This document shows positions 2,481 to 12,619 of a stretch of 12,619 nt of DNA, in pieces; position 1 is the stretch's first letter; each line of letters begins with the position of its first letter. The position numbers and the translations under genes are program-made. A model generated the notes under the pieces. The model did not search any database. It was given only the letters and a program-made list of their open reading frames with translations, and was not told the DNA's origin. Source of the DNA: Desulfobacula sp. (GTDB lineage: Bacteria > Desulfobacterota > Desulfobacteria > Desulfobacterales > Desulfobacteraceae); the NCBI GenBank assembly GCA_029940245.1, contig JAOZRF010000038.1, forward strand, positions 1 to 12,619, in the 5' to 3' direction.

Positions 2481-3116
2481 ATGATATTAAATGCATCAAA
2501 AATAAAAATAATTCTTGAAACTTTAAGAAACCGATACCCTGTTGTCAAGACCCAGCTTGAACATGAAACACCTTTTCAACTGCTTATTGCCACCATTATG
2601 TCAGCCCAGTGTACGGATAATCAGGTGAACAAAGTATGCAAAATCTTATTTGAAAAATATCCTGATCCTGAGAGTTTGGGCAAGGCTTCTTTAAATGACA
2701 TCAAACAGATCATCTATTCCACAGGTTTTTATAATAATAAAGCTAAAAATATTAAAGCCTGTGCTCTTGCAATCCTTAAAGAACATCAGGGAAAAGTGCC
2801 CCAGGATATGGCAAAGCTTGTTATCCTGCCGGGTGTGGGCAGGAAAACAGCCAATGTTGTATTGTCCGCAGCCTTTGGTCGTCAGACAATTGTTGTGGAT
2901 ACTCATGTATTGAGAATTGCCGGAAGACTTGGCCTGACACAAAGCCGTGATCCTGTAAAAGTTGAGTTTGAATTAATGCAGATCATTCCCAAAACATCCT
3001 GGAGCGATTTGTCCCTGCAATTGATTTATTTTGGCAGGGAAATATGTGATGCCAAAAAACCGCTTTGTGAAAATTGTCCGCTGTTTAAGCTGTGTTCAAC
3101 AAAAGGCAAAGGATAA
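2481..3116 (+). CDS. nth: Endonuclease III (DNA glycosylase/AP lyase)
   Basis: 211 residues, the normal length for Nth. It removes oxidised pyrimidines from DNA and cleaves the abasic site. Visible features: N-terminal helices with the MSAQCTD segment, the helix-hairpin-helix LPGVGRKTANVV with catalytic Lys122, the catalytic Asp140 in VVDTHVLR, and the C-terminal [4Fe-4S] loop with exact C-x6-C-x2-C-x5-C spacing (C189, C196, C199, C205). Start is ATG 2481; the alignment with other Nth proteins begins there. No strong Shine-Dalgarno precedes it. Only 13 bp separate its start from that of the divergent PP-loop gene, so its promoter must lie largely within that gene. It converges on a degraded ubiB fragment downstream. 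Confidence 0.95.
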   Translation: MILNASKIKIILETLRNRYPVVKTQLEHETPFQLLIATIMSAQCTDNQVNKVCKILFEKYPDPESLGKASLNDIKQIIYSTGFYNNKAKNIKACALAILKEHQGKVPQDMAKLVILPGVGRKTANVVLSAAFGRQTIVVDTHVLRIAGRLGLTQSRDPVKVEFELMQIIPKTSWSDLSLQLIYFGREICDAKKPLCENCPLFKLCSTKGKG

Positions 3117-3120
3117 AATT

Positions 3121-3346
3121 TTTACGGGTTTGAAAAAAAGTCGCCTCTTCAATTGCGCTGGTTTGTGGAAAGTTTTTCAACTTTTTCGTGGCTTTTGACA
3201 AAGGGTATGAACTCACGGCCGGATTCAATGTAGCGGTCAATATGCATTGAATCAATGATATTGCCAAAACCATACTTTAAAATGATGCTGATAATCTGTT
3301 GATAGCGCCAAAGATGTCGGTACCGCTTACTTACCCTGCTTAGCAT
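3121..3346 (-). pseudogene. Degenerate N-terminal remnant of a UbiB/AarF (ABC1) kinase-like gene
   Basis: An ATG at 3346 opens 65 codons ending at 3149. The peptide contains YRHLWRYQQI, ILKYGFGNIID and EKVEKLSTNQR, which match the N-terminal helices of AarF/ABC1/UbiB family proteins from memory of the family pattern. After NQR the frame hits TGA. In the neighbouring frame the expected continuation appears as AIEE (3145-3156) and then TF (from about 3142), where the family normally reads ALEELGPTF. A frameshift and a small deletion therefore seem to have broken the gene, and everything beyond (roughly 450 or more residues, including the kinase fold) is missing, replaced by the 3' end of nth. 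It lies 17 bp downstream of the phasin-like gene, an arrangement consistent with a former phasin-ubiB operon. The short ORF might still be translated but could not be a kinase. Confidence 0.6.
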
Positions 3347-3363
3347 AAAAACGCTTAGAATGT

Positions 3364-3666
3364 TTATTCTTTATCAGACATTTTTTTTGTCAGAGCGTCA
3401 ATCCTTGTATTAAGGGCTTTTATATCTGATTTTGACGGCAGATCCAGTTTTAAGAGTATTTTTTCTATGGTTTCTTCAATCCTTTTATCAAAACCGGTCT
3501 TTGCATCCTCATATTTTTGCCGACATTCCGTTAGAAAATCCTTGGCTTCATCCTGGCTCATTTTGGATTTTTCAGCAAATTCCTTTGCCAGATCTTCGAT
3601 TTCATTTTTGGATCTTAACGCAAGTCCAACACCTGTTAGCAGGCTTTTTTTCAAATACTCAAACAT
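3364..3666 (-). CDS. Phasin-like small helical protein (PHA-granule-associated family)
   Basis: 100 residues, rich in Lys, Glu and Asp, predicted almost entirely alpha-helical. The N-terminus LKKSLLTGVGLALRSKNEIEDLAKEF resembles the short phasin-like proteins (polyhydroxyalkanoate synthesis regulator type) of Deltaproteobacteria. The middle carries a charged coiled coil and the C-terminus (ALNTRIDALTKKM) has leucine/isoleucine heptads. It has no signal peptide. A strong ribosome-binding site GGAGG (complement of 3671-3675) lies 4 nt before the ATG. It begins only 27 bp after the acyl-CoA dehydrogenase stop with no terminator between them, so both are likely co-transcribed. A role on lipid or polyester granules, or as a small scaffold, is inferred from family resemblance only. 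Confidence 0.72.
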   Translation of the reverse strand: MFEYLKKSLLTGVGLALRSKNEIEDLAKEFAEKSKMSQDEAKDFLTECRQKYEDAKTGFDKRIEETIEKILLKLDLPSKSDIKALNTRIDALTKKMSDKE

Positions 3667-3693
3667 GTTTCCTCCACCCCATAAAAAAATAGT

Positions 3694-5541
3694 TTATTTT
3701 GATCCAAAAGAGACATCCAGGATATCTTCCACACTGGTGTCGCCTTCTAAGATAGCATCCATCTTACCATAAGTAGATGGAAGAAGGGTATTAATAAAAA
3801 ATTTAGCAGATTCTATCTGGCCGGCATAAAAAGCAGCATCTTTATTTTTTTCAGCCTTGGCTGCAACGGCTGCCTTATCCAGACTGCCCACTTTTTGGAC
3901 AAGCTTGGGCGCGGCAATAGATGCACGCCACAGATGCATCCATGCAAAAGTGACATCCCCTGTCACTTCAAGAAAAGGATGGGCAAAGGCATATGCATTC
4001 ATAGCCTTATTTGACCTGGCTCTTTGTCCGATTTCCAGGGCAAGGGCTTTAAGTCTTGAAACCGCATGGTCAACCGTTTCAACCAGATTTTCAATGCCTT
4101 GAATCCCTCTTGCCTCTTTAATGGTTTTTTCCATCTGATTAATGAAGTATTTAAAGCTTTCTCCATTATTCATGGAAAGTTTTCTGCCGATAAGATCCAT
4201 GGCCTGGATACCATTTGTGCCTTCATAAATCATGGAAATCCTTGAATCCCTCATGAGCTGTTCAACCGGGAATTCACAAATATAGCCGTAGCCGCCATAG
4301 ACCTGTACGCCATGGGAACACACTTCCAGGGACTTGTCTGTTATATAGCCTTTAACCAGGGGCGTTAAAACTTCAATCAAGCAACGGGTATCGGTTTTGA
4401 GTTGCTCATCCGATGTTGTGTGGACAATATCAGAGCATTTGCCATAATAATAGATCAAAGAGCGCATTCCTTCTGTATAGACTTTCATGTTCAGAAGCTG
4501 ACGTTTTACATCTGGATGCTGGATAATGGCAACGCTTTTTGCTTCCGGGTCTTTTCCTGCCAGAAGATGTCTTCCCTGAATCCTGTTTCTTGCATAATCA
4601 AGGGCATACATATAAGAAGCAGATGCCACGGCAAATCCCTGCATCCCGATAAATGCCCGGGCTTCATTCATCATCTGGAACATCTCCGGCATGCCTCTGT
4701 TTTCTTTACCCAGAAGGGTGCCGATACACTCCCCTTTTTCTCCAAGGGAAAGAGAGGCTGTGGCATTGCCGCGAATACCCATTTTATGTTCAAGACCAGT
4801 ACACACGACATTATTGAATTCACCCAGGCTGCCGTCCTCGTTCACATGGTATTTAGGAGCCAGGAACAGGGAGATCCCTTTTGTTCCTGCAGGCGCACCC
4901 TCAATTCTTGCCAAAACCGGGTGAATAATATTTTCGCACAGATCATGGTCTCCTCCAGATATAAAAATTTTTGACCCCTGGATGGAATAGGTTCCGTCCT
5001 CTTTTTTTCTGGCCGTGGTGGTAAGCGCACCCACATCAGATCCTGCCTCGGATTCAGTCAAGAGCATGGTACCGCCCCAGATGCCTGCAAACATTTTTTT
5101 TATATAACGCTTTTTCTGGTCTTCATCACCAAAAGCTTCCACAAGTTTGGCCGCACCGTGTGTCATGCCGTAATAAAGCATAAATGCGGAATTTGCCCCC
5201 ACCATGTATTCAAGGGCAGCACATCCGATAAGTTTTGGCATTCCCTGACCGCCAACTTGAGGATCATCACACATGGCAAGCCATTCACCTTCACAATATA
5301 AGTCCCATGCCCGTTTAAATGATTCAGGAACCATGACCTTTCCATTTACAAGTTTGCATCCGATTTCATCCCCATCTTTAAGTGTGGGAAGGATTTCTTT
5401 AATCGCCAGGTTTCTGGCTTCAGAAATTATCAGGCCAATGGTTTTTTTATTGAATTCTTCAAACAATTCATGTTCAACCATTTTAATCTGTTCATGCAGG
5501 ACAAAATCAACATCCCTTCGGTCAGCGATAAGTTGTGTCAT
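3694..5541 (-). CDS. Acyl-CoA dehydrogenase, ~600-residue (DmdC/AcdA-like) type
   Basis: 615 residues. FAD enzyme that introduces an alpha,beta double bond into an acyl-CoA and passes electrons to electron-transfer flavoprotein. An N-terminal helical extension (about 1-75) precedes the classical fold. FAD/substrate motifs: LTESEAGSDVGAL and the QGSKIFISGGDHD strand. The C-terminal helical domain includes GVQVYGGYGYICEFPVEQLMRD, followed by the IYEGTNGIQ motif, whose Glu (E440) is the likely catalytic base. The last ~140 residues form the extra domain seen in the longer ACAD subfamily, which includes methylthiopropanoyl-CoA dehydrogenase; substrate cannot be read from sequence. Ribosome-binding site AAGGA lies about 8 nt before the ATG. 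A MITE copy sits within 30 bp upstream of the start, in the leader or promoter. It leads a unit with the phasin-like gene. Confidence 0.93.
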   Translation of the reverse strand: MTQLIADRRDVDFVLHEQIKMVEHELFEEFNKKTIGLIISEARNLAIKEILPTLKDGDEIGCKLVNGKVMVPESFKRAWDLYCEGEWLAMCDDPQVGGQGMPKLIGCAALEYMVGANSAFMLYYGMTHGAAKLVEAFGDEDQKKRYIKKMFAGIWGGTMLLTESEAGSDVGALTTTARKKEDGTYSIQGSKIFISGGDHDLCENIIHPVLARIEGAPAGTKGISLFLAPKYHVNEDGSLGEFNNVVCTGLEHKMGIRGNATASLSLGEKGECIGTLLGKENRGMPEMFQMMNEARAFIGMQGFAVASASYMYALDYARNRIQGRHLLAGKDPEAKSVAIIQHPDVKRQLLNMKVYTEGMRSLIYYYGKCSDIVHTTSDEQLKTDTRCLIEVLTPLVKGYITDKSLEVCSHGVQVYGGYGYICEFPVEQLMRDSRISMIYEGTNGIQAMDLIGRKLSMNNGESFKYFINQMEKTIKEARGIQGIENLVETVDHAVSRLKALALEIGQRARSNKAMNAYAFAHPFLEVTGDVTFAWMHLWRASIAAPKLVQKVGSLDKAAVAAKAEKNKDAAFYAGQIESAKFFINTLLPSTYGKMDAILEGDTSVEDILDVSFGSK

Positions 5542-5569
5542 ATCATTTTCCTTTTTTGTATATAATCAT

Positions 5570-5703
5570 TCAACTTTCGGTCTTAAGTTCTTGAGACGGG
5601 GTCAGGCTTGTTTTATTGTGTTTTTATCAATGAATCTATATCAAAAATGCAATAATGCAAGTCTGACCCCAGTCAGTCCAATCTGGCAACTCCGAAAGTT
5701 GAC
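5570..5703. mobile_element. MITE-like element, copy 2 (about 134 bp, inverted relative to copy 1)
   Basis: Reverse-complement counterpart of the element at 1254-1385. It runs from TCAACTTTCGG (5570-5580) to CCGAAAGTTGA (5692-5702), with inner arms GGGGTCAGGCTTG (5598-5610) and CAAGTCTGACCCC (5659-5671). Differences from copy 1 are a 4-nt indel, a 1-nt indel and a handful of substitutions. It is flanked by direct repeats TAATCAT at 5563-5569 and 5704-5710 (an eighth matching T follows both), different from those of copy 1, so the two insertions were independent. It lies in the spacer between the divergent acyl-CoA dehydrogenase and MBL-fold genes. Confidence 0.82.
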
Positions 5704-5764
5704 TAATCATTGTTATAATTTATTTTGAATAACTACAGCATTTTCCTAAGCAAAATAAACAGGG

Positions 5765-5793
5765 TTGTCAACCTGTGAGTGTAAAAAAATAAT
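5765..5793 (+). promoter_or_regulatory. Candidate sigma-70 promoter of the MBL-ampG operon
   Basis: TTGTCA (5765-5770) and AATAAT (5788-5793) are separated by 17 bp. Each hexamer matches the consensus at 5/6. Transcription would begin near 5800, giving a leader of about 35 nt that contains the ribosome-binding site AGGAG (5827-5831). Confidence 0.5.
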
Positions 5794-5835
5794 TATTGGG
5801 TGGACTAAGAATTTATGTTGTGATACAGGAGAACG

Positions 5836-6675
5836 ATGGATATTAAATGTTGGGGCTCGAGAGGGTCGATATGTGTATCAGGTGATCAATACTCCAGATA
5901 TGGAGGTGATACAACCTGTATTGAGATTACAGCAAAATCAGGGGAAACGATTATTATTGATGCCGGGACAGGTATCCGCCGCCTGGGAAATTCCCTGATT
6001 CAAAGAAAGATAGACCAATACTATCTTTTGTTGACCCACGCCCATTGGGACCATATCCAGGGATTTGTTTTTTTCAGGCCCCTGCTTTTCAGTAAAGTTA
6101 AAATAATTATTCAGGACCGCAAATTTTTAAGCTTCAATACAAGACAGCTTTTCAATAAAGTTATGGAAACGCCCTTTTTCCCCATTGGTTTAGGGGATCT
6201 GAAAGCAGATATGAAATTTGATACGAGATTAAATGATAAATTTAATATAGGTTCTGTAAATATAGAAACCATTCCAACTAGTCATCCGGGCAGCGGTCTG
6301 GGGTATAAGTTTATTGAAGATGGCAAATCCTTTGTGTTTTTAACGGATAATGAGCTTGGGGTTGATCATCCCGGAGGACAGGGGTTTGAAGGATACCTGA
6401 ATTTTGTACGGAATGCAGATCTTTTGCTTCATGATGGAGAATACACCAGGGCAGAATATAAACAAAAGAAAAATTGGGGACACTCTTCGATTCAGGATGT
6501 ATTGGAGCTTGCATTAAAAGCCAATATTAAAAAACTTGGATTATTCCATCTGAACCAGGATAGAACTGATGACCAGATGGATAAGATTATCTGTGAGTGT
6601 CAGGCAGATTTGAAAAAGAAAAATTCAACCCTTGAGTGTTTTGCAGTTCCCTGCAATATGGAAATTCATCTTTAA
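5836..6675 (+). CDS. Metallo-beta-lactamase-fold hydrolase
   Basis: 279 residues, no signal peptide, so cytoplasmic. Metal ligands follow the family pattern: THAHWDH (H68, H70, D72, H73), then H150 in the TSHPGSG loop, D171 in FLTDNE, and later histidines at H199, H216 (NWGHSS) and H238 (LFHLNQ). The N-terminus GSRGSICVSG and YGGDTTCIEI is typical of the RNase Z/PhnP-like branch of MBL-fold proteins, which mostly cleave phosphodiester or similar bonds in small molecules or nucleic acids. The substrate is unknown. Start is ATG 5836 with AGGAG 4 nt upstream. The ampG-like gene follows 28 bp later without a terminator, so the two are probably co-expressed; a link to cell-wall recycling is inference only. 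Confidence 0.88.
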   Translation: MDIKCWGSRGSICVSGDQYSRYGGDTTCIEITAKSGETIIIDAGTGIRRLGNSLIQRKIDQYYLLLTHAHWDHIQGFVFFRPLLFSKVKIIIQDRKFLSFNTRQLFNKVMETPFFPIGLGDLKADMKFDTRLNDKFNIGSVNIETIPTSHPGSGLGYKFIEDGKSFVFLTDNELGVDHPGGQGFEGYLNFVRNADLLLHDGEYTRAEYKQKKNWGHSSIQDVLELALKANIKKLGLFHLNQDRTDDQMDKIICECQADLKKKNSTLECFAVPCNMEIHL

Positions 6676-6703
6676 TGATAACTTCTTTGGCCAAACCAAT
6701 TTC

Positions 6704-7993
6704 ATGAAACAAAAATTCAACTCCTCTTTTTTGCAGATCATCAAAATTATGCTGTCCTGGAAAATGCTGGTCATGTTTTTTTTCGGGTTTTCCTCGGGTT
6801 TTCCCTATTATATTATCAAAGATGTATTAAAATTCTGGATGATGGATGCCAATGTAGATATCGCTAAAATTGGTCTATTTGCTTTGGTGGGCATGCCTTA
6901 TACACTCAAATTTGTATGGTCTCCGATGATGGATGGATTTATCCCTCCATTTCTGGGTCGCAGGAGGGGCTGGATCCTTATGGCGCAGATTGGGCTTATG
7001 ATCACCATTGCCTTTTTGGGGCAATTTGATCCGGAACAATCCCTTGTATGGATAGCTGTGTTTGCGCTTTGTCTCAATTTTTTCGGGGCCAGCCAGGATA
7101 TTGCCCTGGATGCTTTCCGGCGTGAATATCTGACAAGCAAAGAGTTAGGCTTTGGTACGGGCGTGTGGATGAATGCCTGGCGTCTTGGCACCTTTGTTTC
7201 TGTCGGACTTTCTGTTCTGGCTGACTTTAATGTTACATGGCAGACTATTTTTTTTATATTGACGGCTGTAATGGGAGTAGGAGTCATCACCACCCTTCTG
7301 GTTCCGGAGCCTGTGGTTGAGGAAGGTCTGCCTTTAAATATGAAAGAGGTGATTATTGAGCCCTTTGTTGAATTTTTTCAAAGACGTTGCGCCATTCTGA
7401 TTTTATTGTTCATTCTGCTGTATAAGTTAGGGGATAATATGGCAAGTACCATGGCGATTCCCTATATTATGCAAATGGGATTTACCAAGGCTCAGTATTT
7501 TGTCATTGTGAAAGGGGTTGGTATGCTTGGACTTTTTGGCGGGGTTCTTGTCGGGGGGTCTATCATGATCCGTCTGGGTATTGCAAAGTCATTGTATGTT
7601 TTTGGCGTTCTTCAGGCGATCTCAACGGCATTTTTTGCTGTTTTGAATAATATTGATCATGGATCGCATTTCTGGATTGAATATAGCCAGACCCTCCTGG
7701 GCGGCATTATTGCATTTGAATTTTTTTCAACTGGCCTTGGACAGGCAGCATATGCAACCTATATGGCAATTCAGACCAACAAACGATTTACTGCAACGCA
7801 ATATGCACTGTTAACAAGCCTTATGGGAGTGCCCTCTGTTTTTGCAGCCTCGTTGACAGGCTATTTATCCATATACCTGGGATGGAATATATTTTATTAT
7901 TTGTGTGCATTTATAGCAATTCCTGGAATACTTTTATTGTTTAAAATTGCACCATGGAATGTAAGCAATGAGGTGTTGGAGCAAGGAAAGTAA
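6704..7993 (+). CDS. ampG: AmpG-type muropeptide MFS permease
   Basis: 429 residues from ATG 6704, close to the usual length for AmpG. It is an inner-membrane major-facilitator protein expected to import anhydromuropeptides (GlcNAc-anhydroMurNAc peptides) during peptidoglycan recycling. Family signatures: GFSSGFPYYIIKDVLKFWM in the first helix, KFVWSPMMDG followed by FLGRRRGW in the first cytoplasmic loop region, and SQDIALDAFRREYL in the fourth-fifth helix region. About 12 hydrophobic segments are visible up to the C-terminal IPGILLLFKIAPW. A longer frame begins at a TTG (6632) inside the MBL gene, but the ATG matches the family N-terminus better. No clear Shine-Dalgarno precedes this ATG, which suggests translational coupling to the upstream gene. 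Confidence 0.88.
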   Translation: MKQKFNSSFLQIIKIMLSWKMLVMFFFGFSSGFPYYIIKDVLKFWMMDANVDIAKIGLFALVGMPYTLKFVWSPMMDGFIPPFLGRRRGWILMAQIGLMITIAFLGQFDPEQSLVWIAVFALCLNFFGASQDIALDAFRREYLTSKELGFGTGVWMNAWRLGTFVSVGLSVLADFNVTWQTIFFILTAVMGVGVITTLLVPEPVVEEGLPLNMKEVIIEPFVEFFQRRCAILILLFILLYKLGDNMASTMAIPYIMQMGFTKAQYFVIVKGVGMLGLFGGVLVGGSIMIRLGIAKSLYVFGVLQAISTAFFAVLNNIDHGSHFWIEYSQTLLGGIIAFEFFSTGLGQAAYATYMAIQTNKRFTATQYALLTSLMGVPSVFAASLTGYLSIYLGWNIFYYLCAFIAIPGILLLFKIAPWNVSNEVLEQGK

Positions 7994-8251
7994 ATCAGGT
8001 CGGCAAAAGCTGATATTGAAATCATAAGTATTTTTTGGGTTACCTAAATTTAAATAGTGCTTGACAAAAAAAGCCCTTTTTTTTACTTAAACGCTGGGAA
8101 AATTTAAATAAAGATTTGTTAATTAATAAAATAATTATCAGGTTTTTTTGTCCAGACCCTGTTTTGTTTTATATTGTAATGATTTTGGAGCAGACAGGGT
8201 TCATCGCTTTAAACTGTGAAGCGATTATAAACAGGTGAGGAGGTTAAAATA
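7994..8251 (+). promoter_or_regulatory. Leader/promoter region of the selenoprotein HdrA gene, with two dyads
   Basis: AT-rich non-coding spacer of 258 bp. A plausible promoter is TTGTCC (8148-8153), 16 bp, TATATT (8170-8175). A TTGACA also occurs at 8061-8066 but has no good -10. Two perfect inverted repeats follow: ACCCTGT (8156-8162) with ACAGGGT (8194-8200), which straddle the -10, and ATCGCTT (8203-8209) with AAGCGAT (8219-8225), which could form a hairpin in the leader just upstream of the ribosome-binding site GAGGAGGT (8237-8244). They could be operators or RNA structures. No convincing terminator for ampG was found here. Confidence 0.4.
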
Positions 8252-11200
8252 ATGTCCCAAAATTTAACACCAAAGAAAGATCTTGCGGGCTCTGTCATGG
8301 TTCTTGGCGGCGGAATCGCGGGAATGCAGTCTGCAATAGATTTAGCTAATTCAGGGTATTATGTGTACCTGGTGGAAAAATCATTTGCCATTGGCGGTAT
8401 GATGGCACAGCTGGATAAGACATTTCCGACCAATGACTGTACCATGTGAGTGATTTCACCCAAACTGGTCGAGGTCGGCCGGCATCTGAATATTGAACTA
8501 TTGACAAATACACAACTTATTGAACTTGACGGAGAAGAAGGGAACTTTACCGCAAGGGTGAAAGAAAATCCAAGGTTTGTTGATTTATTAAAATGTACCT
8601 CATGTGGGGAATGTGCCAAAGTTTGTCCTGTGGACGTCCCAAGTGAACACAACCAGGGATTGGCCACAAGAAAGGCTGTTTTCAAGCAATACGAACAGGC
8701 CATACCGGGAGGGTATGGGATTTCCAAACGATCCACGGCTCCTTGCAAGGCCACCTGTCCGGCACATGTAAGCATTCAGGGGTTTATCGCCTTGATGAAC
8801 CAGGGGAAATATGCCGAAGCATTGAAATTGTTTAAACAAGAGCATCCTTTTCCAGGCTCCTGCGGCCGTGTCTGCCATCATCCCTGTGAAGCGGTTTGTA
8901 CCAGGGGAGATGCAGATGAACCTGTTGCCATCCAATACCTTCACAGGTATTTGGCAGAACTGGATTTTGACGGTGATGAAACCTTTATTCCTGAAGTTGC
9001 AGAAAAGCGCGATGAAAAAGTGGCCATTGTGGGTTCAGGTCCTGCAGGACTGACTTGTGCTTATTATATGGCTCAAAAGGGATATGGGGTTACCATATTT
9101 GAAAAATTGCCCGTCAAAGGCGGCATGATGACGGTGGGTATCCCGGAATACAGATTGCCCAAAGACGAGCTTGCAAAGGAAATTGAGGTTATTGAAAATC
9201 TGGGCGTTGATATTCAAACCTCTATGGAATTTGGCAGGGATGTTACCCTTGAAAGCCTTAAAAAAGATGGTTACAGCGCATTGTTTATGGCCACCGGTCT
9301 TCATGGCTCCCGCGGATTGGGTGTCAAGGGAGAAGATCTGGACGGGGTGATCAAGGGTGTTGATTTATTAAGAGATGCAGCCATGGGCAAAGCCCAAAAG
9401 TTTAGCGGCAGGGTCATGGTGATCGGCGGTGGTAATGTTGCCGTTGACGTTGCCCTCACTGCCAGAAGACTTGGCGCCGAAGATGTGACCATGGTCTGTC
9501 TTGAAAAACGGGATGAAATGCCTGCCTGGGACTATGAAATTGAGGAAGCCCTTGAAGAAAAAGTTAAAATTGTCAACAGTCTTGGACCCTTAAGATTTCT
9601 TGGTACAAATGGGAAAGTCGATGAAGTTGAATTCCAGGAATGTACAGCAGTATTTGATGAAAGCGGCAGGTTTAATCCCCAATATGATGATTGTAAATTA
9701 ACGTCTTATGAAATAGATACCGTCATTGTGGCCATCGGTCAGATGGGGGAACTGGATTTTGCTGATAAAGAAGGCATTGCTTTAACCCCGCCCGGTGGGC
9801 TCAAAGCAGATCCTGTGACCTTGCAGACCCCCATCGAATGGGTGTTTGCAGGCGGTGATGCATTTTACGGACCCAAATCGGTTGTGGATGCCGTAGCCAG
9901 TGGTAAAGAAGCGGCACAAAGCATGCAAAGGTTCATCAATGGCGAAGATTTGAAAGAAGGCCGGGGAAAGTCCTGGGATTATGAAAAACCCGATATTAAT
10001 AATGTACCCAGACTTGAACGGGTCAAACCTGTTAAAATCGGTGTTGATGAACGGGAAGGCAATTTTAGAGAAGTCACCTTGAATCTTGCAAAAGAAGCCA
10101 TTGAAAGAGAAGCGGCCCGCTGTCTTTCCTGTGGAATCTGTTCGGAATGCTACCAGTGTGTGGATGCCTGTCTTGCAGGAGCTATAAACCATGATGAACA
10201 GCCAAAGATAAGAGATTTAAATGTGGGATCTGTGATAATGACGACGGGTGCCACAACCTTTGATCCGTCAGGGCTTGATGATATTTATATGTATAAGAGA
10301 TCTGCTAATGTGATGACATCTCTTGAGTTTGAAAGAATTTTAAGCGCGGGTGGCCCGACCATGGGGCATCTTGTCAGACCTTCCGATGAAAAAGAACCTG
10401 AGAAAATTGCCTGGCTCCAATGCATCGGGTCAAGGGATACCAATAAGTGCGGCAATGGGTATTGTTCATCGGTCTGCTGTATGTATGCCATCAAGGATGC
10501 CATGATTGCAAAAGAGCATTCCGAAAAGGACCTGGATGCGGCCATATTTAATATGGATATGCGGACATTTGGAAAGGATTATGAAAAATATTATAACCGG
10601 GCCAAAGACCAGGAAGGGGTCAGGTTTATAAAATCCAGAATTCACTCTGTGGTTGAAGAACCGGGAACGGACAACCTGATTCTCAATTATGCTGATGAAG
10701 AAGGAAAGATGCAGCAGGAAATTTTTGATATGGTCATTCTGTCTGTGGGACTGGTTATTCCGCAGGAGAGTGTGGATCTTACCACGAGAATAGGTGTTGA
10801 GCTGGATAAGTATCATTTTGTAAAAACTTCTACCTTTAATCCATTACAGACATCCCGACCAGGAGTATATGTATCGGGTTCTTTTCAGGGTCCCAAGGAT
10901 ATTCCTTCCTCTGTGACGGAAGCAAGCGGTTCTGCTGCAGCGGCCGGGATGAAGTTGGCCCAGGTTCGTCATACCCGTACAAAAGTACTTAGTATGCCGG
11001 AAGAAAGAGATGTCCTGGGCGAAGATCCGAGAATCGGGGTGTTTGTCTGCATGTGCGGTATTAATATTGCCGGGGTGATTGATGTTGAGGATGTTGAAAA
11101 TTATACCAAGGGACTTCCCAATGTTGTTTATACCGGTATCAATCTTTTTACCTGTTCCCAGGATACTCAGATTATTATCAAAGATATTATTAATGAGCAT

Positions 11201-12619
11201 AAACTAAACCGTGTGGTGGTGGCATCCTGTACCCCTAAAACCCATGAAGGCATATTCATGGATACATTAGAGGAGGCAGGTTTAAACAAATATCTTTTTG
11301 AAATGGCAAATATCAGAAATCAGGATTCCTGGATGCATTTTCATGAACCTGAACAAGCTACTGAAAAAGCCAAGGATCTGGTTCGAATGGCTGTGGCGAG
11401 GGTCGCGACCCTGGGACCGCTTCATGACAAACGAATCACAGTGATTGACAAGGCCCTTGTTATTGGTGGCGGTATTGCAGGTATGAATGCTGCCAAAGCA
11501 TTGGCTGATCAAGACTATGAGGTTATCCTGGTTGAAAAACAAAGCCTTCTTGGCGGTTTTGGAAACAAGCTGCATCATACCATTGAAGGAGATGATATTC
11601 GTGCCTATGTGAAAGACCTTGTTGAGGCGGTTGAGAGTCATGACAAAATAGAGGTACTTAAACAGGCATTGATTGTTGGATTTGATGGGTATAAAGGCAA
11701 CTTCAAGACGACTATTCTTGTGGGCGCATCAATGGAAGAAAGAAAGATAGACCATGGTGTCATGATTGTTGCAACCGGTGCAACGGAATATCAGCCCAAA
11801 GAATTTCTTTATAACGAAAGCGAAGCAGTTGTCACACAGATTGAACTTACCGATATGATTGAGGAGAACAAGGCTGGACAGCTTGATCGTGTCGTCATGA
11901 TTCAATGCGTGGGATCAAGAAACGAAGAGAACCCGAATTGTTCAAGGATCTGCTGTCAGAGTGCCGTCAAGAATGCCATTTCTCTGAAAGAACAAAATGC
12001 AGATACGGATGTTTTTATTCTTTACAGGGACATGAGAATGTACTCCATGCTTGAAGAGTATTACACAAAGGCAAGAAATCTTGGCGTAATTTTTTCGCGG
12101 TTTGATCCTGAGAATCCACCCGAGGTGGCAGCCGGTGAAGATGGTAAAATGACAGTTACTTTCACCGACCATGTCCTGGGGTATAAAATTGAAGCCAGTG
12201 CGGATCTTGTTGTATTGAGCGCAGGTGTCAAGGCGGCCGATACGGAAGAACTGGCAAGCATTATTAAGACAAACAGAAATCCTGAAGGCTTTTTTATGGA
12301 AGCCCATGTGAAACTTAAACCGGTTGAAGCGGTCACTGAAGGTATTTTTATCTGCGGTACCGCACACGGACCAAAACTGATTTCAGAAACCATTGCCCAG
12401 GCAATGGCTGCAGCTTCAAGGGCCACCACATTCCTTTCCCAGGAATACCTGACTCTTTCTGCAGTAAAAGCCGAAGTAATACCGGAAAATTGTGCATCCT
12501 GTCTTGTATGCGTCAGGTCTTGCCCTTATAATGTGCCGGTCATTAATGAATTTGGTGTCAGTTATATTGACCCGGCACTTTGTCAGGGATGTGGTGTGTG
12601 CGTATCTGAATGTCCTGCT
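8252..12619 (+). CDS. hdrA: Giant HdrA-type selenoprotein: HdrA(Sec) with inserted NfnB/GltD-like module, fused to a second HdrA (3' end beyond window)
   Basis: At least 1456 codons, read through an in-frame TGA at 8447-8449 as selenocysteine 66. Domain order: HdrA FAD-binding start (GGGIAG near residue 20; NDCTM then Sec66, then [11 protein letters not shown]); [4Fe-4S] C115/C118/C121/C125; NfnB/GltD-like insert with Fer4_20 cysteines (C165, C169, C204, C208, C212, C216), FAD motif GSGPAG (261-266) and NAD(P)H motif GGGNVAVD (392-399); six-cysteine motif C624-C640; HdrA core with C724, C738, C742, C743; then a second HdrA: N-terminal VCMCG (C933, C935), FAD motif GGGIAG (1072-1077), C1219, C1230, C1234, C1235, and two ferredoxin motifs C1414-C1424 and C1444-C1454. 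Strong ribosome-binding site GAGGAGGT 7 nt before ATG. Probably a cytoplasmic electron-bifurcating/confurcating hub linking NAD(P)H, ferredoxin and thiol/disulfide partners. Resembles the large HdrL-type proteins of sulfate reducers; partners HdrBC/MvhD are not visible. Confidence 0.9.
8447..8490 (+). promoter_or_regulatory. Selenocysteine UGA codon with bacterial SECIS element
   Basis: The UGA at 8447-8449 is followed by a 6-bp stem, CTGGTC (8465-8470) with GGCCGG (8477-8482), two of the pairs being G-U. It closes a 6-nt apical loop GAGGTC (8471-8476). The loop begins 22 nt after the UGA, within the range known for bacterial SECIS elements, and contains GGU like the loop of E. coli fdhF. A lower 4-bp helix, TTCA (8455-8458) with TGAA (8487-8490), lies below an internal loop. 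Such a hairpin recruits SelB with Sec-tRNA. The same bases also encode conserved HdrA residues. Confidence 0.82.

Follow-up and report, generated by a model that had tools for sequence, protein, structure and literature searches.

Introduction

Selenocysteine (Sec)-containing HdrL proteins were described in 2009 for Desulfobacterium autotrophicum HRM2, where HdrL1 and HdrL3 are reported to be selenoproteins and the HdrL genes to be followed by mvhD (PMC2702500). Here we analyze a gene of this class, hdrL, from Desulfobacula sp. The gene occupies positions 8252..12619 on the + strand of a 12,619-nucleotide stretch (G000:C409:1-12619, hereafter the window), which belongs to an assembly of 566 contigs and 3.19 Mb that is 79.5% complete. 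It is truncated at the window end, which is also the contig end, so that 1456 codons are present and the 3' end is cut; in the relative L039 the full length is ~1480 codons. An initial annotation, made from the window alone, had proposed that this gene encodes an HdrA in which an in-frame UGA specifies Sec.

What is known about HdrA is directly relevant to the position of this codon. In the HdrABC-MvhAGD structure, as it is related in PMC9012536, Cys197 is a ligand of the N-terminal [4Fe-4S] cluster of the partner HdrA. The same source notes that fused HdrAs, including the MetVF-associated one of Moorella, have lost the N-terminal domain and Cys197 in a complementary fashion (PMC9012536). In the window protein, the residue that aligns with Cys197 of HdrA in PDB entry 5odc is residue 66, and it is here that the in-frame TGA (8447..8449, + strand), which we read as Sec66, is found.

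Results

Conservation of the in-frame TGA

Counting from the ATG at 8252, the TGA at 8447-8449 is codon 66 and replaces the last Cys of an NDC-x-x-C motif. After it the frame stays open for 1390 codons, up to the window end, and the open reading frame (ORF) preceding it is 65 aa long; all of this is as the initial annotation had stated. A protein scan of named genomes yielded 76 distinct related loci, in which the codon at the Sec66 position is TGA in 53 and TGC or TGT in 10, the motif being unreadable in the remaining 13. In other words, the alignment with Cys- and TGA-type homologues that had been suggested as a check finds either TGA or Cys at the same codon in the relatives with a readable motif. 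In a second search, covering 58 genomes and giving counts among the matches listed, hence lower bounds, at least 27 matches with at least 64% identity, that of the window among them, cover residue 66. Each of these 27 has exactly one internal TGA, and in 27 fetched loci it is located at codon 66. Outside this set is a fragment from G013 (86% identity, residues 1-521) with two TGA codons.

The nearest named relatives are mostly metagenome-assembled genomes labelled Desulfobacula, Desulfobacteraceae or Deltaproteobacteria. The TGA is also present in the isolates Desulfospira joergensenii (L067) and Desulfocicer vacuolatum (L035), a second copy in D. joergensenii (L052) carrying Cys instead. The genome under study itself contains both types: a Cys paralogue with 50% identity on contig C526, and two more HdrA genes, on contigs C83 (L161) and C133 (L162), with TGA at the same codon. 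In the matches shown, the latter two lack the GltD insert; their protein identity to the window HdrL is only 45-59%. As for the selenocysteine machinery, which the initial annotation had proposed to look for, selA, selB and selD each score above the curated cut-off in this genome; a TGA is present in the selD match itself.

A conserved hairpin downstream of the TGA

A bacterial selenocysteine insertion sequence (SECIS) is a stem-loop placed shortly after the UGA with a G in its apical loop, and the hairpin at 8465..8482 (+ strand) conforms to this rule. It has a 7-bp stem and the apical loop AGGU (8472-8475), and its nucleotides are near-invariant in the TGA genes. The SECIS-like hairpin was already noticed in the initial annotation, but the distance of 22 nt after the UGA given there for its start is that of the AGGU loop, while the hairpin proper starts after 15 nt. 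In the proposed RNA folding check the stem-loop does form, but its energy alone is not exceptional (z of -1.0 and -1.1). An Rfam scan of the window at the gathering threshold gave no match.

Since the energy of the hairpin is no better than that of shuffled sequences, we turned to codon invariance as evidence. The analysis comprised 54 sequences (53 loci and the window) and codon columns -45 to +89 around the TGA. There are 56 columns with an invariant residue that has degenerate codons, and a single codon is used in just six of them, namely +5, +6, +8, +9, +10 and +11. All six lie within the hairpin or at the codon just before it, and the remaining 50 columns vary. If columns were exchangeable, the chance of such a placement would be about 3 in 100 million, a figure that is descriptive because the sequences are related. 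Of the 57 distinct TGA sequences among fetched loci with a readable motif, 56 contain the exact 18-base core and the last one is one base off; none of the 12 distinct Cys sequences contains it. The TGA-bearing HdrA genes on C83 and C133 carry the same hairpin core.

Incomplete records of HdrL in protein collections

The initial annotation had expected the gene to be hidden from ordinary gene calling, and the relatives stored in protein collections are indeed mostly short at the start. A search of 5.8 billion protein sequences returned 7864 matches. Among the best 120, to which the following figures refer, 119 are 1218-1421 aa long, have 82-95% query coverage and show no NDCxM motif close to their start. 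The sole full-length record (P0092, 1474 aa, 99% coverage) is a Cys version with NDCALC. Contig ends may also be behind the shortness of some of the 119. Record names include 'HdrL fusion protein' (Desulfamplus) and 'NADPH-dependent glutamate synthase beta chain' (Desulfobacula phenolica). What is likely an energy-conserving enzyme of marine sulfate reducers is thus mostly stored without its first 65 residues.

Architecture of the window HdrL

HdrA domains are present in the protein, in agreement with the initial annotation, but it is of the HdrL type, an HdrA/GltD/HdrA fusion; a plain HdrA was rejected because of the GltD insert and the second HdrA half. In comparison with PDB 5odc, residues 16-159, 630-846, 924-1096 and 1306-1456 of HdrL correspond to residues 147-290, 293-506, 2-174 and 475-629 of HdrA, respectively. 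For residues 163-637 the matches are to GltD/NfnB-like chains, among them 9bov, 8oh5 and 5jca. None of the 18 PDB sequences listed covers the entire HdrL.

The first HdrA half begins, at residues 16-159 (8297..8728, + strand), with the start of the FAD-binding region, including a GGGIAG motif at residue 19 and so within the first 65 residues, and with the first 4Fe-4S motif; there is no N-terminal HdrA domain. The inserted GltD/NfnB-like NAD(P)H-FAD module follows at about residues 160-628 (8729..10135, + strand). The remainder of the first half, about residues 630-905 (10139..10966, + strand), contains C724, C733, C738, C742 and C743 as well as E694 and K748, whose HdrA counterparts E356 and K409 are bifurcation residues. 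The second half opens with an N-terminal iron-sulfur domain at about residues 924-1055 (11021..11416, + strand) with Cys 933, 935, 968 and 993, and continues with a thioredoxin-reductase domain and a C-terminal ferredoxin domain, the latter cut by the contig end (11450..12619, + strand). Its thioredoxin-reductase domain has neither the inserted ferredoxin domain nor a counterpart of the Cys or Sec at residue 66, and it retains K1240.

The two halves are thus complementary: the first has Sec66 and no N-terminal domain, and the second has the N-terminal iron-sulfur domain and no such Cys. It is therefore likely that the chain folds on itself like an HdrA dimer. Moreover, since the complementary loss is present here, Sec66 should ligate the N-terminal cluster of the second half.

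The nucleotide-binding loop of the GltD module reads CLE-x-R in all 49 loci read (out of 76), four Cys-type loci among them. It is YRR in five solved relatives and YRRTR in the Cys paralogue on C526. CLE-x-R in place of YRR is taken as a sign of NAD(H). A possible tie between the loop type and Sec was considered and no clear link emerged, CLE-x-R being found also in Cys-type loci and YRRTR in the C526 Cys paralogue.

Genes downstream of hdrL

The regions after hdrL were analyzed by tblastn in 57 of the 76 loci, those that include the hdrL end and at least 2200 bases beyond it. The complete set of mvhD, metV and metF comes after hdrL in 49 of the 57, and mvhD in 53. In L035 and L074 the products have the Pfam domains FlpD, MTHFR and MTHFR C-terminal. 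In the genome studied here, mvhD (with TGA), metV and metF are found at the end of contig C364. The window contig and C364 place almost end to end on the relative L074, where C409 ends at query base 169 and C364 starts at 185 (a gap of ~15 bases), and for this reason the operon very probably continues from C409 to C364 across the assembly break.

The mvhD genes are themselves mostly of the TGA type. At the Cys position, 36 of 37 hand-picked readable loci have TGA and one (L052) has TGT, and the motif FCCNF-Sec-GYSAADLAG occurs in many loci. Searching by motif, we obtained 52 distinct mvhD stretches, with TGA in 49, TGC in two and TGT in one; the 49 TGA stretches have five invariant codons in common just downstream. 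A small gene (MAVIVKYIVVRNGEEKMTFATKKEADD...) is located after metF on contig C364 (L175), and likewise after metF in L020, L032, L039 and L067.

This genome also has an HdrC/HdrB-like gene, which is situated on the separate contig C526 and not beside the window hdrL. It encodes an iron-sulfur protein (L160:3869-5155) with an in-frame TGA at codon 240 (VVNTE-U-GHSYF) and lies directly upstream of the Cys-type HdrL paralogue (5170-9615). Just before it is an ORF (2976-3854) that is MetF-like by eye.

Other features of the window

Upstream of hdrL, the window encodes on the - strand a protein (1454-2548) in which an NFACT-R_2 RNA-binding domain is accompanied by a region weakly similar to ThiI; this ORF and an endonuclease III gene on the opposite strand (2481-3116) overlap at their starts. 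A small protein with a Pfam match to phasin, a polyhydroxyalkanoate granule protein (3364-3666, - strand), adjoins an acyl-CoA dehydrogenase-like gene (3694-5541, - strand). A tblastn search of plasmids with the HdrL protein gave 221 records, all with less than 60% identity and none with 80% query coverage.

Discussion

Judging from the sequence comparisons, the UGA at 8447-8449 very probably encodes Sec. Supporting this claim of the initial annotation are the conservation of the codon in orthologues, the existence of Cys homologues, the conserved SECIS-type hairpin and the presence of selA, selB and selD in the genome. In the scheme that we propose, the hairpin at 8465-8482 would assist in decoding UGA as Sec, giving an HdrL-type selenoprotein. 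Sec66 would then be a cross-half ligand of the [4Fe-4S] cluster that is bound by a subset of Cys 933, 935, 968 and 993, and the GltD insert would supply an NAD(P)H site, with NAD(H) as its probable substrate. Together with Sec-MvhD, MetV and MetF, HdrL would most likely serve as a flavin-based bifurcating or confurcating electron module of methylene-tetrahydrofolate reductase. On the whole we consider it probable that the window gene encodes a Sec-HdrL with a pseudo-dimer fold, in which Sec66 is the cross-half cluster ligand and which is the electron module of a MetVF methylene-tetrahydrofolate reductase. If so, a selenoprotein class that is known and as yet uncharacterised, HdrL, is tied to the methylene-tetrahydrofolate reductase step of the Wood-Ljungdahl pathway.

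Desulfobacula has been proposed possibly to use the Wood-Ljungdahl pathway in reverse (PMC8318568). In a sulfate reducer oxidising carbon in this way, the reaction may run towards NADH. It is tempting to go further and to speculate that Sec66 naturally ligates a [4Fe-4S] cluster through its selenolate and in this way links the two halves of a single-chain HdrA pseudo-dimer, that this protein and Sec-MvhD make up a double-selenoprotein confurcating module, and that reduced ferredoxin drives the oxidation of methyl-tetrahydrofolate to NADH. This extended scheme is a tentative one and, taken as a whole, we would sooner expect it to need revision than to hold. The protein class is already in print; any possible novelty would lie in two points, the ligation of a cluster by Sec and the association of Sec-HdrL plus Sec-MvhD with MetVF. 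No earlier statement of a Sec-ligated cluster in HdrA was found in the open-licence literature, a scope that makes this a weak negative. The window protein nevertheless offers a candidate case of Sec as a natural iron-sulfur cluster ligand.

A number of observations weigh against the proposed scheme. The search for the tRNA-Sec gene (selC), whose absence the initial annotation had named as a refutation of its reading, was negative in the present assembly (79.5% complete), in which the four weak tRNA-Sec matches are tRNA-Ser and tRNA-Arg. When the genus is surveyed (25 genomes, counting the present one), tRNA-Sec scores above the cut-off in 21; the four without it are 79.5, 68, 56 and 81% complete, and three other genomes of only 77-81% completeness do carry it. 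Searching this genome with the tRNA-Sec region of one relative yielded partial matches only, and these did not reveal where the selC gap lies. A missing contig is the simplest reading of the absent selC. As to the hairpin, 30 and 25 of 200 shuffles fold as well as or better than it does. In the second half of the protein, the strict E356 position is occupied by Thr1200, with Glu1198 two residues earlier. Nor is the operon uniform: in the 57 loci, mvhD alone was detected in four, metV/metF without detected mvhD in three, and none of the three genes in one. In L043 and L071, both of the TGA type, an HdrC/HdrB-like gene is found 0.6-0.7 kb after hdrL and metVF was undetected, and in L076 such a gene lies 2.9 kb after hdrL. 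This gene is possibly an alternative partner of the same Sec-HdrL. With P0122 as query, it was undetected within 3 kb downstream in the other 54 of the 57 loci, unlike in Moorella. Finally, in D. autotrophicum, HdrL1 and MvhD are followed by dsrABC, and the two were proposed to connect NADH with sulfite (PMC2702500).

Two of these observations are also those that favour a different partner for Sec-HdrL, be it the DsrABC sulfite reductase, HdrBC-like proteins or another acceptor instead of MetVF, with electrons from NADH directed to sulfidogenesis. There is the HdrL1 precedent for a Dsr-type partner (PMC2702500), and L043 and L071 have the HdrC/HdrB-like gene with no metVF detected. However, in 49 of 57 loci hdrL is succeeded by mvhD, metV and metF, as it is in the present genome once the contig break is bridged, and the layout equals that of the MetVF-associated HdrA of Moorella as described in PMC9430772, so that we regard a partner other than MetVF as unlikely. 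Somewhat better are the chances that Sec66 is present and is not a cluster ligand, serving instead, close to the flavin or the clusters, as a selenol with a redox-active or protective role. What is said about Cys197 is based on a structure from a methanogen, relayed by a secondary source (PMC9012536), and none of the PDB sequences listed spans the whole HdrL. Nonetheless, a ligand role is in keeping with the way the two halves complement each other, one having lost the N-terminal domain and the other the Cys or Sec, and the non-ligand explanation appears to us a serious minority option.

The explanations that dispense with Sec altogether fare much worse. If the UGA were an ordinary stop, the products would be a 65-residue peptide and, after a restart at the following GTG, a shorter HdrA-like protein. 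A GTG does directly follow the TGA, and most database records show the shorter protein. Yet the first 65 residues, with their GGGIAG motif, align with HdrA, of 76 loci 53 keep the TGA and 10 have Cys, and the hairpin is conserved at the nucleotide level; on these three grounds simple termination was rejected as highly improbable. An assembly or sequencing error, or a pseudogene, is more improbable still, in spite of an assembly as fragmented as 566 contigs: the same TGA is found in other assemblies, including those of the named isolates D. joergensenii and Desulfocicer vacuolatum, and the rest of the frame is intact, which led us to reject both.

Comparison with known systems

The HdrL proteins of D. 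autotrophicum HRM2, compared here by description, share with the window protein the fusion of HdrA to a glutamate synthase part with an NADH site, the Sec and the neighbouring mvhD, several of the mvhD genes there encoding selenoproteins too (PMC2702500). They differ in that dsrABC comes after HdrL1 and HdrL3 has a fumarate reductase domain, whereas in the present case metV/metF follow mvhD. The HdrA of the Moorella thermoacetica HdrCBA-MvhD-MetVF complex is similar in architecture, having a thioredoxin-reductase half split by GltD and then a second HdrA without the inserted ferredoxin domain (PMC9430772). It is also of similar size (162.8 kDa, ~1487 aa) and has mvhD and metVF as neighbours (PMC9430772). 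Unlike the loci studied here, in which an HdrC/HdrB-like gene is located downstream in 3 of 57, the Moorella operon contains both hdrB and hdrC.

A similar GltD insert is described for the type III HdrA of methane-metabolising archaea (PMC12054007). In contrast to the archaeal type II and type III HdrA as presented in that source, the window HdrL unites features of both types and carries Sec (PMC12054007). With the selenoprotein HdrAs reported from methanogens, Asgard archaea and Deltaproteobacteria it has in common the CxxU motif and a Sec-containing MvhD/FrhD as gene neighbour (PMC1794560, PMC11227280, PMC13188914). The hairpin of the window gene lies in frame downstream of the UGA, whereas the paper on Asgard archaea looks for archaeal SECIS elements in 3' untranslated regions. 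Unlike the selenoprotein HdrAs as these sources describe them, the window protein is fused to GltD and linked to MetVF.

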